Positions 44,194 to 47,911 of a DNA stretch of 64,000 bases are shown here, one piece after another. The notes under the pieces were generated by a model. That model did not search any database. It was not told the DNA's origin and was given only the letters and a program-made list of their open reading frames with translations. Positions within the stretch are counted from its first letter, which is position 1. Each line of letters begins with the position of its first letter. The position numbers and the translations under genes are program-made. The DNA lies in contig NZ_JAHLMU010000001.1 of the NCBI RefSeq assembly GCF_018919485.1, positions 2,630,048 to 2,694,047 on the forward strand, given 5' to 3'. The DNA comes from Psychrobacter sp. TAE2020. GTDB taxonomy: Bacteria; Pseudomonadota; Gammaproteobacteria; Pseudomonadales; Moraxellaceae.

Positions 44194-45099
44194 ATGGCTC
44201 AAGCTGTCAATGAAGTAAATGACTTGATGAGTAATGACACCCTTCGTTCGAAGTCTAAGTTGTCAATGCCAAGTACAGCCAAATATTTTTTTATGGCACT
44301 AGTTATTGGTTTATTACTGCTGATATTGATGATGGGTGCAAAAGCCTTACGAGATGCACCGCCTGCAGCTATTCAGGTGAGTAGCGAAGGGTTGAATAGC
44401 ACTCAGTACCAAACCTTGAAACAAGCTATGGACCAACAGAAAGTTAGTAGTTTTTTTACTACTGATCTGCAAGCTTTGCGCGATATAGTTATAGGTATGG
44501 CTTGGGTTGATCAAGTAAGCGTAACTCGTGATTGGCAACAAGGTATTGTTATTACCGCACTGCCTAAACAGGCGATTGCTAATTTTGGTACTGAGCGCTT
44601 AGTAGATGCCAAAGGCGTAGTGTTTGTACCTACTGACAATAAAGACTTGCGCCAACAAAGCTTTGCCAATTTGCAAGGTGAAGTTAATCAAGCACCCGTT
44701 ATAATGCAACAAATGCAGCAAGTTAATGATTGGTATGCTCCTATCGATATGCAGGTAGAAGACATTATCTTAACTAAACGCATGACTTGGTTAATTCGTT
44801 TTGATAACGGTTTACGAGTAATAGTTGATAATGAAAATACAGCGCAAAAATTACTTAATCTTAGTCAGTTGCTGGGTAATCAGCTAAGTAGTCGCCGTGA
44901 TGAGATTCAGTCAGTGGATCTGCGTTATAAGAATGGCTTTACTATTACTTGGCATGCGATTGAACCGGTAGCAGCGACTACCGATGTGACAGCTACTGAT
45001 GCTGCTAGCGCCAAAGTTGATAGCCCTAAAGCTACTACTACTGAGGTTGCTACTACTGACATTTCTACTACTGATGTTACTCCTACTGAGCAACCTTGA
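44194..45099 (+). CDS. ftsQ: Cell division protein FtsQ
   Basis: 301 aa, a bitopic inner-membrane protein. A cytoplasmic leader of about 30 residues precedes one membrane helix (FFMALVIGLLLLILMMGAKAL, about residues 30-50). The periplasmic part has a POTRA-like region (AIQVSSEGLNSTQYQ ... MAWVDQVSVTRDWQQGIVITALPKQAIANFGTERLVDAKGVVF) and a beta domain with VDLRYKNGFTITW. FtsQ links FtsA/ZipA-bound early proteins with FtsL-FtsB. The last 42 residues are a repetitive Thr/Asp/Val/Ala tail (TTDV and TTEV units) not found in typical FtsQ. Next comes ftsA, 158 bp downstream. Confidence 0.9.
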   Translation: MAQAVNEVNDLMSNDTLRSKSKLSMPSTAKYFFMALVIGLLLLILMMGAKALRDAPPAAIQVSSEGLNSTQYQTLKQAMDQQKVSSFFTTDLQALRDIVIGMAWVDQVSVTRDWQQGIVITALPKQAIANFGTERLVDAKGVVFVPTDNKDLRQQSFANLQGEVNQAPVIMQQMQQVNDWYAPIDMQVEDIILTKRMTWLIRFDNGLRVIVDNENTAQKLLNLSQLLGNQLSSRRDEIQSVDLRYKNGFTITWHAIEPVAATTDVTATDAASAKVDSPKATTTEVATTDISTTDVTPTEQP

Positions 45100-45221: not shown

Positions 45222-45260
45222 ATGGTTTCCTGTTTAGCGATAATTTGTCTGGTACCATGA
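45222..45260 (+). CDS. Possible 12-codon leader peptide overlapping the ftsA start
   Basis: GGAG at 45211-45214 lies seven bases before an ATG at 45222 that opens MVSCLAIICLVP and stops at TGA 45258-45260. The stop overlaps the ATG of ftsA at 45257 as ATGA. It is the best ribosome-binding site near ftsA, so translational coupling is plausible. The alternative is that ftsA starts at an in-frame ATG at 45209, which has no ribosome-binding site. Confidence 0.35.
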   Translation: MVSCLAIICLVP

Positions 45261-46549
45261 AAAATACTGAAAACCTAGTTGTAGTTCATCTAAGCGCCAC
45301 TGCAGTTTATGTAGTGATTGGCAGCGTCGTGTCTGAAAAAGACATCCGCATTATGGGCGTTGGGCAAGTCAAAAACAGTGACTTTTACCAAGGCCAAATT
45401 AAGCATCGTGAACGTTTACAAAGCGCTATCAAGCAAGCCATTCAAGAAGCTGAAGATGTTGCAAATTGTCGGGTTCATAGCGTATGGTTGACGCTGTCTA
45501 CACCTGAGCTATCTAGTAAGAATAGCGTTGGCAGCGTGTTGGTTGAAGATGATATAGTAAGTGCTAAAGACATGGTAAAAGCTTTGGCTAGTGCTAAGTC
45601 AAAGGACTTGCCAGCGGACTATTACTTGATGCATTGCTGTCAGCAGGGTGTCTATGTCGATGATCAAGACAATATCGTTGATGACGCTATCGAGATGTTA
45701 GCTAAAAACATCAGTGTTATGTATCACATGATGATGATGCCTGTGGTCAGTCGTCAAAATATCCAAAAACTACTACAGAGTTGTGACGTAGGCATTGACC
45801 ACGTGGTCTTTGATGCAGTGACTAGCGCTGAATATAGCCTAATGAGTGAAGAGCGTCAGCAAGGTATCTGTCTTATAGATATTGGTGCTAGCACAACTAG
45901 TATTTGCGTCTATAAAGAAAACAAATTAATATTCACCCATTGTATTGCTATTGGCAGCCATGCGGTAACTATGGACATATCAGCAGACTTTGGTATCTCA
46001 ATGATAGAAGCTGAAAAACTGAAAAAATTGCATGGTACTGCGGATATCAATAGTATAGATCCTAGCGTATTCTTGTTATATAAGACGCAAGGGTCGAGCG
46101 ATGCGCTTAATGTACATACTTACAGCTTAGCGCAAATTATTGAAGCACGTTATGTGCAGATATTTACTGAAGTGGCGCGTCAGCTACATGAGGTAGATCT
46201 GCTACATTACCTTGATCGCGGTTTTGTACTTACTGGCGGCGGTAGTGCTATTAAAGGCATGGTACCTTTTGCCAAAAAACTATTGAAAATGCCAGTAGTC
46301 TTGACCAATGCCCATCCTGCTATTAGTGCTTACAACCATTTTGATAATGACGCTTCGTTTAAGCAGCTTAATGATCAAATAAATGATAGTGCTTACCAGA
46401 CTGCTTTTGGTACTCTACTATATAGTCAGAGTGAACAATTCCGCCACAGTGAGCAAAGTGAGCCTGAAGCTGCCAAACAGCGACGGGTAAAAAATGTTTT
46501 TCAAGGTGTTGGCAAACGTTTCAGTAGTGTGCTCAAAAAAATATTATAG
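45257..46549 (+). CDS. ftsA: Cell division protein FtsA, atypical phosphate-1 loop
   Basis: 430 aa from the ATG at 45257; an in-frame ATG at 45209 would add 16 residues. It is actin-like and matches Moraxellaceae FtsA: QEAEDVANCRVHSVWLTL, MMMMPVVSRQNIQKLLQ, GICLIDIGASTTSICVY (phosphate-2), RGFVLTGGGSAIKGM (adenosine loop), and a C-terminal amphipathic helix FSSVLKKIL that anchors it to the membrane. The phosphate-1 loop, usually (D/E)IGT, reads HLSAT at residues 11-15, so ATP binding is probably altered. FtsA recruits FtsZ filaments to the membrane. It precedes ftsZ by 174 bp. Confidence 0.9.
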   Translation: MKNTENLVVVHLSATAVYVVIGSVVSEKDIRIMGVGQVKNSDFYQGQIKHRERLQSAIKQAIQEAEDVANCRVHSVWLTLSTPELSSKNSVGSVLVEDDIVSAKDMVKALASAKSKDLPADYYLMHCCQQGVYVDDQDNIVDDAIEMLAKNISVMYHMMMMPVVSRQNIQKLLQSCDVGIDHVVFDAVTSAEYSLMSEERQQGICLIDIGASTTSICVYKENKLIFTHCIAIGSHAVTMDISADFGISMIEAEKLKKLHGTADINSIDPSVFLLYKTQGSSDALNVHTYSLAQIIEARYVQIFTEVARQLHEVDLLHYLDRGFVLTGGGSAIKGMVPFAKKLLKMPVVLTNAHPAISAYNHFDNDASFKQLNDQINDSAYQTAFGTLLYSQSEQFRHSEQSEPEAAKQRRVKNVFQGVGKRFSSVLKKIL

Positions 46550-46723: not shown

Positions 46724-47911
46724 ATGTCAAAATACACCATGCCACATGACAACCAACCTCAAAGTAATGGCCAAGCACGTTTTATCGTATTCGGTGTCGG
46801 CGGCGGCGGCGGTAATGCAGTTGAACACATGGTGCAACAGGGTATAAAAGGGGTGACGTTCGTCTGTGCTAATACAGATAAACAAGCGCTTGATCGCTTA
46901 ACGGCGCCGCACAAGTTGCAGTTAGGTGCTAAAAGTAATCGTGGTCTTGGTGCAGGCGCTAATCCAGAAGTAGGGCGTGAAGCTGCTGAGAGTGAAGAAG
47001 AAGCTATCCGCACTTTACTTGAACACTCAGATATGGTATTTATTACTGCTGGTATGGGTGGCGGTACTGGCACAGGCGCTGCTCCAGTAGTCGCACGTAT
47101 TGCCAAAGAGATGGAAGTTTTGACTGTTGCTGTCGTCACTACCCCTTTTAAATTTGAAGGTGGCAAGCGCATCAAAGCGGCTAAAGCTGGTATCGAGCAG
47201 TTGACTAATTTTGTTGACTCTATCATTACTATCCCTAATGATAAGTTAATGAGCATCTACGGCAATATCTCAATGCAGGATGCCTTCAAAAAAGCTGATG
47301 ATGTGTTATTACATGCTGTACAAGGTATAGCTGAAACTATCGCTCGTGAAGGGCTTATCAATATTGACTTTAACGATATCCGTACCGCAATGACTGCCAA
47401 AGGTCATGCAATGATGGGTATTGGTCGTGCAAGCGGCGATGATCGTGCTCGTCAAGCGACAGAAAAAGCAATCAGATCACCATTGCTTGATGATCTACGC
47501 CTAGAAAATGCTAAAGGCTTATTAGTTAATGTTATTTCATCTGAGTCTTTATCTCTAGATGAATTCAACCAAATCAGCGAAATCGTTGAAGGCATCACTG
47601 ATAATGACGATGCTAATATCTTCTATGGTTCAGTAATCGATGAAGAGATGGGCGATGATCTACATGTTACGGTTATTGCTACTGGACTGACTTTGAATGA
47701 AGACTTAACTGAAGTCGTAGCACCAATACCTTCAGTCACTAGTAATCAGTCTGTTGATCCTAACTTGCATACTAGTGCTTTAAACAGTCAAAAACAGTCC
47801 AAAACTCAGACGTTCCAAGACAATATAACTCGTCCTGGCGCAATCCAAGAGCATCAAGCCACCAAAACTAACAGTATTCAAGACTACTTAAAGCGTCAAC
47901 AAAATAAATAA
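46724..47911 (+). CDS. ftsZ: Cell division protein FtsZ
   Basis: 395 aa. The GTP-binding tubulin signature is AGMGGGTGTGAAPVVA, with FGVGGGGGNAVEHMV at the N-terminus, ANTDKQAL and the T7 loop NIDFNDIRTAM that completes the active site of the neighbouring subunit. A variable linker ends in a short C-terminal peptide (IQDYLKRQQNK) that binds FtsA. It polymerises into the division ring with ZapA (13005) as a cross-linker. GGAG lies before the ATG, and a terminator follows at 48065, so the group ends here. Confidence 0.98.
   Translation: MSKYTMPHDNQPQSNGQARFIVFGVGGGGGNAVEHMVQQGIKGVTFVCANTDKQALDRLTAPHKLQLGAKSNRGLGAGANPEVGREAAESEEEAIRTLLEHSDMVFITAGMGGGTGTGAAPVVARIAKEMEVLTVAVVTTPFKFEGGKRIKAAKAGIEQLTNFVDSIITIPNDKLMSIYGNISMQDAFKKADDVLLHAVQGIAETIAREGLINIDFNDIRTAMTAKGHAMMGIGRASGDDRARQATEKAIRSPLLDDLRLENAKGLLVNVISSESLSLDEFNQISEIVEGITDNDDANIFYGSVIDEEMGDDLHVTVIATGLTLNEDLTEVVAPIPSVTSNQSVDPNLHTSALNSQKQSKTQTFQDNITRPGAIQEHQATKTNSIQDYLKRQQNK

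Follow-up and report, generated by a model that had tools for sequence, protein, structure and literature searches.

The window, by which we mean the whole stretch of 64,000 nucleotides of Psychrobacter DNA that was analyzed, carries a division cluster in the order murG-murC-ddl-ftsQ-ftsA-ftsZ-lpxC (Table 1). The ftsA frame encodes a protein with the N-terminus MKNTENLVVVHLSATAVYVVIGSVV (translation of 45257-46549), which matches the NCBIfam equivalog TIGR01174 over residues 7-388 (245.1 bits, cut-off 175.85) and has the FtsA-specific SHS2/1C domain inserted in its actin fold (PF02491 35.4 bits, cut-off 25.4; PF14450 83.7 bits, cut-off 31.8). The maximum hydrophobic moment over the last 25 residues is 0.76, compared to 0.78 in E. 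coli FtsA, and the predicted helix there has a pLDDT <50. Descent, fold, and gene order all identify the protein as FtsA. Like FtsA of E. coli and other gammaproteobacteria (7Q6D, 7Q6F, and 7Q6G), it has the actin fold with its SHS2/1C domain, both the phosphate-2 and the adenosine motif, the gene order of the cluster, and a predicted amphipathic helix at the C-terminus, and from the place of the gene and the parts of the protein we infer an FtsA-like role in anchoring. No other FtsA was found in the genome: the two further PF14450 matches, MreB and PilM, each retain the Asp of the actin fold (AIDLGTANT and GVDICSTSVK), and this rules out both an additional, canonical copy of FtsA and a loss of the Asp across all actin-fold proteins of the genome. 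At its C-terminus (44974-45096), the FtsQ encoded upstream carries a long tail that is rich in Thr and Ala and includes TTDV-like repeats.

Table 1 Genes and protein features at the ftsA locus, in window coordinates.
Feature	Position	Strand	Evidence
ftsA, 430 aa	45257-46549	+	TIGR01174 245 bits vs cut-off 176; PF14450 and PF02491 above cut-off
ftsZ	46724-47911	+	TIGR00065 410 bits, cut-off 295
ftsQ, upstream of ftsA	44194-45099	+	FtsQ model 68.6 bits (weak, below the cut-off of 366) and gene order
Phosphate-1 (P1) position H11-L-S-A-T-A-V17, replacing (D/E)-I-G-T-x-K-V	45287-45307	+	Alignment to E. coli E14; conservation rank 1/390
Asp186, close to the Mg site; aligns with E. coli Ala188	45812-45814	+	Asp in 129/131 of the clade; distance range from PMC10213515
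Tyr193, at the E. coli Ser195 position	45833-45835	+	Fixed, 131/131 of the clade
Phosphate-2 (P2) motif D208-I-G-A-S-T-T	45878-45898	+	Asp in 129/131 of the clade
A252-E-K-L-K256, presumably the nucleotide-side helix motif	46010-46024	+	Lys in 131/131 clade members
Adenosine motif G322-F-V-L-T-G-G-G-S-A-I-K-G334	46220-46258	+	Motif alignment; conserved columns
C-terminal amphipathic helix, putative membrane-targeting sequence	46496-46546	+	Hydrophobic moment; pLDDT <50
FtsZ C-terminal peptide NSIQDYLKRQQNK	47870-47908	+	Tail comparison across loci

The phosphate-1 motif across Moraxellaceae

FtsA of E. coli and other gammaproteobacteria has the phosphate-1 motif (D/E)xGTxK. In the window FtsA, H11-L-S-A-T-A-V aligns with E14-I-G-T-A-K-V of E. 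coli, placing H11 at Glu14. The first-pass annotation had reported HLSAT at residues 11-15 of FtsA, and the translation of the 430-aa frame agrees, coordinates included. It had also proposed an alignment across Moraxellaceae, and this alignment divides the family. His occupies the Glu14 column in all 131 sequences of one clade (Psychrobacter 104/104, Moraxella 21/21, and the M. atlantae/boevrei group 6/6), while Asp occupies it in all 43 sequences from the sister, Acinetobacter-like genera, which keep the Gly, Thr, and Lys of the motif as well (43/43). The change is thus confined to part of Moraxellaceae and is absent from the Acinetobacter-like genera. Within the clade, Ser or Thr replaces Gly16 in 130/131 sequences, the single member still with Gly being a Moraxella (L134), and Ala replaces Lys19 in 131/131, so that the clade has HxS[AS][TS]A in place of the gammaproteobacterial motif. 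Among the Psychrobacter genomes searched, the nearest relative (G101) is 99% identical.

These counts cover the 104 Psychrobacter genomes (g1) with a match among the 105 searched, 21 of the 22 Moraxella genomes (g10) sampled, and all six genomes sampled from the M. atlantae/boevrei group (g7). The sister sequences come from 34 of 90 genomes of g15, 4/4 of g9, 3/4 of g11, 1/1 of g8, and 1/1 of g16; the genomes of g7, g10, and g15 are an even draw from a larger family. We read g15 as Acinetobacter from its usual Gln at the position of E. coli Arg286, the residue that A. baumannii FtsA has there according to PMC11449484. The clade loci include Psychrobacter, Moraxella (bovoculi, oculi, oblonga, caprae, lacunata, and others), and M. 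atlantae/M. boevrei. A further set of 80 loci, kept among 113 confirmed, all read H[LI][ST][AS][TS]A[VI], an agreement that is not independent evidence because one of the two search patterns held the same motif.

The profile search gave no FtsA match in the 22nd Moraxella genome (G151). We do not accept this as a biological loss of FtsA; ftsZ is missing there too, which points to absent sequence. Three drafts (G138, G164, and G167) had FtsA matches that all fell below the cut-off, and one draft that is 77% complete (G081) had no match. Two further records are unusual. The FtsA of a genome in genus g14 (L125, G117) is placed as sister to the His clade, with a very long branch of its own, and its phosphate-1 motif reads SLGHRHI, with Ser replacing the acid. 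A record titled Streptomyces cinereus JCM 3040 (L286) carries a Moraxella-group FtsA and is mislabeled or contaminated.

Outside the family, the outgroup sequences besides E. coli have Asp at 14 and Lys at 19 in 45/45 cases. As a wider Pseudomonadota control we read 97 FtsA frames, 92 of them from 199 genomes (30 of them top-scoring loci) and five from another search; a few of the genomes also occur in the outgroup set, and one frame (L397) scores under the FtsA cut-off. Column 14 is D in 84, E in 9, N in 3, and a gap in 1, with His in 0/96; Gly16 is present in 96/96 and Lys19 in 82/96. The Asp/Glu and Gly of phosphate-1 are nearly universal in this wider sample. A separate Pseudomonadota lineage of another class than that of Psychrobacter (f76, with the altered site in 3/5 genomes read; L393-L395) resembles the clade in having lost the phosphate-1 acid, but it differs in having Asn (NIGSFRI), in keeping the Gly, and in having Glu for the phosphate-2 Asp. 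An open-licence library was searched for a changed FtsA in Moraxellaceae or an ATP-independent FtsA, and, judged by title and abstract opening, no paper returned there deals with an altered FtsA nucleotide site in the family. FtsA is a known protein; the fixed replacement of phosphate-1 in this clade is new, and the mechanisms discussed below are proposals. Because the protein has HLS where the nucleotide-site signature of the actin/Hsp70/sugar-kinase group (motif names as in PMC10213515) has the phosphate-1 (D/E)xG, it should be classed as an FtsA with a rewritten nucleotide site and not as a canonical bearer of this ATPase signature.

Constraint on the new motif and the rest of the pocket

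The first-pass annotation had called the loop degenerate, and its conservation contradicts that description. In a set of 38 clade sequences (19 g1, 16 g10, and 3 g7), reduced by a filter at 85% identity, HLSATAV is the most conserved heptapeptide of clade FtsA, with the lowest mean entropy of 390 seven-residue core windows (rank 1/390). Its conservation equals that of the phosphate-2 stretch and exceeds that of the adenosine stretch, and both H11 and A16 are invariant in this set. Both His codons are used at H11 (CAT 117 and CAC 13, n = 130), so it is the amino acid, not the DNA, that is held. The 34 outgroup sequences share 122 conserved columns. In the clade, 24 of these are retained, 91 are variable, and only seven are switched and fixed: D14 to H11, G16 to S13, K19 to A16, T57 to L54, L187 to F185, E188 to D186, and A219 to C217. 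Three of these seven fall among the six phosphate-1 columns (hypergeometric P 0.002), and a fourth (188) is near the Mg. Some of the switches may be passengers of fast FtsA evolution, since FtsA evolves fast throughout the crown group. On this pattern of conservation, HLSATAV is evidently a new constrained motif, not decay. Also fixed is Tyr193 (131/131 clade members), which stands at E. coli Ser195; in E. coli, S195P is the ftsA27 change (PMC10213515).

The phosphate-2 and adenosine motifs do remain, as the first-pass annotation had stated. The phosphate-2 DxG is kept as D208-I-G210 within DIGASTTS, compared to DIG(G/A)GTTD in the outgroup, and its Asp is retained in 129 of the 131 clade members, the other two being Psychrobacter with Asn in place of Asp208 (L037 and L066). 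The adenosine motif is present as LTGGGSAIKG, with G327 and G328 in the window FtsA and both Gly in 130/131 of the clade. With phosphate-1 excluded, the clade keeps 11/22 outgroup-conserved columns in the other nucleotide motifs, compared to 13/94 elsewhere (Fisher P 0.0006, with motif ranges picked after viewing the column list). The kept nucleotide columns, in E. coli numbering, are G205, C207, D210, G212, K258, G331, V333, G336, G337, G381, and L383. This preferential retention fits a pocket that would still be in use, and it can also reflect the fold instead of binding.

AlphaFold2 models of the window FtsA (pLDDT 89.0, pTM 0.86) and of a Moraxella FtsA (pLDDT 88.8, pTM 0.86) both retain the strand-turn-strand of phosphate-1, which in the window protein consists of strands 5-12 and 16-26 joined by a short turn. 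The best solved matches were ATP- or ADP-bound FtsA structures (7q6f, 7q6d, and 7q6g by VIA-align; Z 44-45, ~375 residues aligned, ~25% identity).

Evolutionary rate, binding partners, and the sister lineage

In a tree of 97 rows (IQ-TREE, LG+C20), the His clade is monophyletic with support of 99/99 and a stem of 0.73 changes per column; a branch of 1.54 in the same tree sets canonical FtsA apart, and the program warns of long branches meeting. Across 90 loci with both genes, the ratio of FtsA to FtsZ distances is 0.92 within other Pseudomonadales and 1.45 within basal Moraxellaceae, is 1.64 and 1.74 for E. coli against these two groups, respectively, and is mostly 2.3 to 3.1 in comparisons involving the clade. 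Lower values were found within g7 (1.26) and Psychrobacter (2.06), between g7 and Psychrobacter (1.77), and between g14 and either g7 (1.96) or Psychrobacter (2.10). Saturation may account for some of this increase, because the ratio is generally higher for distant pairs.

The clade further differs from E. coli and other gammaproteobacterial FtsA at the double-filament interface (96 and 153), at Arg286, and in the tail of FtsZ. A tail of the form (D/N/E)(I/V)P(A/S)FL is present in 39/40 loci from basal Moraxellaceae and other Pseudomonadales (the exception is L120), and outside the crown group the peptide of relatives reads (D/N)IPAFLRRQAD or a near match, compared to NSIQDYLKRQQNK in the window. 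The Asp, Pro, and Phe of this C-terminal peptide are described as fully conserved in the set compared in PMC9939409. In the window FtsZ all three are replaced, likewise in the other Psychrobacter- and Moraxella-group loci read. Psychrobacter has SIQDYL and Moraxella has drifted further, and PAFL was found near the FtsZ end in 0/78 frames of the named clade loci (one of which ends inside the core).

At the FtsA double-filament interface, I/V96 and R153 are present in 44/45 outgroup sequences. Positions 96/153 are E/N or D/N in 60/104 Psychrobacter and E/D in 3/6 of the M. atlantae/boevrei group. The latter pair is a natural equivalent of E. coli M96E R153D, which blocks double-stranded filaments and is dominant negative according to PMC11323482. 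In the wider sample (n = 97), position 153 is Arg in 78 and position 286 is Arg in 66; because both vary outside the family, changes there are not special to the clade.

ZipA was found in 24/25 genomes searched (the miss, G186, is an 88% complete draft), and a second anchor therefore exists. As ZipA occurs inside and outside the clade alike, its presence or absence is ruled out as the cause of the FtsA change. Among 14 loci examined for FtsN tails (two, L425 and L429, without a reading frame, and three, L401, L408, and L409, with frames that are not FtsN-like), SPOR-containing, FtsN-like proteins (L410, L412, L414, and L403-L406) share a [PQ][KR]G[AV][TS]x[KR] motif in their short N-terminal tail, which possibly binds FtsA.

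The Acinetobacter-like sister lineage shares with the clade the same long branch from canonical FtsA and the loss of Arg286 and Arg153 (each lost in 43/43), and its FtsZ tail, SIQ[DE]YL in the two g15 loci read, is similar to that of Psychrobacter. It differs from the clade in keeping the Asp, Gly, Thr, and Lys of phosphate-1 and in having lost both Gly337, a residue of the adenosine motif, and the acid at 188. Position 337 is Gly in 95/97 of the wider Pseudomonadota sample; the 43 Acinetobacter-like sequences have D there in 37, A in 4, and E in 2, with phosphate-1 intact. As judged from these columns, this lineage has changed the opposite half of the nucleotide site.

Candidate fates of the Mg-ATP switch

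In E. coli FtsA, Glu14 is the residue nearest the Mg, at 2.4 Å, and its replacement in E14R offers the closest known comparison (all statements on E14R are from PMC10213515). E14R does not complement in vivo or grow at the restrictive temperature, is membrane-bound without ATP, stays bound in the presence of EDTA, and fails to tubulate vesicles, and it retains 61% of ATPase activity in vitro; across E. coli variants the extent of the ATPase defect tracks division defects poorly. The clade resembles E14R in the loss of the acid at the same position. It differs in having His rather than Arg and several changes rather than one, and, unlike the non-functional E14R, its change sits in the only FtsA of the genome and is kept in 131/131. 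The likeness would predict membrane binding that is insensitive to Mg and a loss of ATP-driven tubulation. It bears on the suggestion in the first-pass annotation that this FtsA cannot bind ATP normally. A changed switch is likely, since the Mg-nearest acid, the Gly, and the Lys are replaced in the whole clade, but an inability to bind ATP is unsupported: the remainder of the pocket belongs to the best-conserved regions of this FtsA, and 61% ATPase activity in E14R indicates that loss of the acid need not halt hydrolysis.

It is most likely that FtsA of the clade still binds nucleotide, with the Mg2+/γ-phosphate half of its site rewired and its Mg-ATP switch altered or lost. As a whole, the account in which a rewritten phosphate-1 accompanies bound nucleotide, a switch that is slowed, locked, or lost, and an FtsA that acts as a partner-set tether stands, in our estimate, at an even chance. 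The ancestor shared by Psychrobacter, Moraxella, and the M. atlantae/boevrei group exchanged D-x-G-T-x-K for H-x-S-[AS]-[TS]-A in its phosphate-1 hairpin, and the new motif has been fixed and under strong constraint since. Nucleotide would still be bound, and γ-phosphate and Mg2+ would be handled differently, with His11 in place of the phosphate-1 acid and Asp186 and Asp208 as the presumptive acids left around the Mg position. With this altered handling, the Mg-ATP switch, which in E. coli governs membrane release and polymerization, would be slowed, locked, or lost. FtsA would then serve as the membrane tether for FtsZ, and its assembly would be set mainly by binding partners, through the rewritten FtsZ tail and the rewritten filament interface.

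The distribution of acids around the Mg could instead indicate full compensation, in which Asp186 together with Asp208 restores an ordinary Mg site and the protein binds ATP, hydrolyzes it, and forms polymers with the same dynamics as other FtsAs. Positions 14 and 188 each lie 2-8 Å from the Mg in 7Q6D (E. coli numbering; PMC10213515), and their acids are complementary across the three groups: the 14/188 pair is D/E in 43/45 outgroup sequences besides E. coli, D with S, A, or C in 43/43 Acinetobacter-like sequences, and H/D in 129/131 of the Psychrobacter-Moraxella clade. Each of the sister lineages thus retains one of two ancestral acids, and the pattern suggests that D186 with D208 carries the Mg site in the clade. 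Such a site is not strict, since two Moraxella (L099 and L133) have H/A and so neither acid, and the two Psychrobacter noted above have Asn at D208. Compensation through a newly gained acid at 188 is weakened in particular, as the acid is ancestral (E in the outgroups) and those two Moraxella are without it. Gly16 and Lys19 are replaced as well, and we consider full compensation unlikely.

At the other extreme, the site might bind no nucleotide at all, the conserved motif being structural and joining the two halves of the protein without a ligand. The replacement of both DxG signature residues and of Lys19, the change of Asp208 to Asn in two species, and the bulky Phe185 and Tyr193, fixed within ≤7 residues of the Mg-near Asp186, would all agree with such a pseudo-actin. 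Conservation of the phosphate-2 and adenosine motifs exceeds that of the remaining protein, the opposite of what a dead pocket leads one to expect, and we regard this explanation as distinctly improbable. The pairing of a kept adenosine side with a changed phosphate-1 side might also reflect tuning to another state or ligand, such as ADP that stays bound permanently or a different nucleotide; the analysis turned up nothing that points to a different ligand in particular, and we give this little credence. A sequencing or chance oddity is excluded because His is found in 131/131 sequences from separate genomes, and the census likewise refutes an artefact of sequencing, frame, or start choice, which is practically out of the question.

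Returning to the reading with a rewired Mg2+/γ-phosphate half, a bolder form of it, which we put forward tentatively and with more doubt than conviction, is that the clade gave up the Mg-ATP switch. Nucleotide, if bound, would be locked, and anchoring and divisome activation would proceed by partner contacts only, with the FtsZ tail and filament interface rewritten to match. Since the Acinetobacter-like sister appears to have altered the other half of the site, the family may have taken the switch apart twice, by different routes. The role of the FtsA ATP cycle in division is not settled, and a clade with a fixed non-acidic residue at the Mg-touching position of its sole FtsA would provide a direct test of which division steps need the Mg-ATP switch. 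The changes that co-occur in the FtsZ tail and the FtsA double-filament interface would in turn be a natural record of their possible co-evolution.
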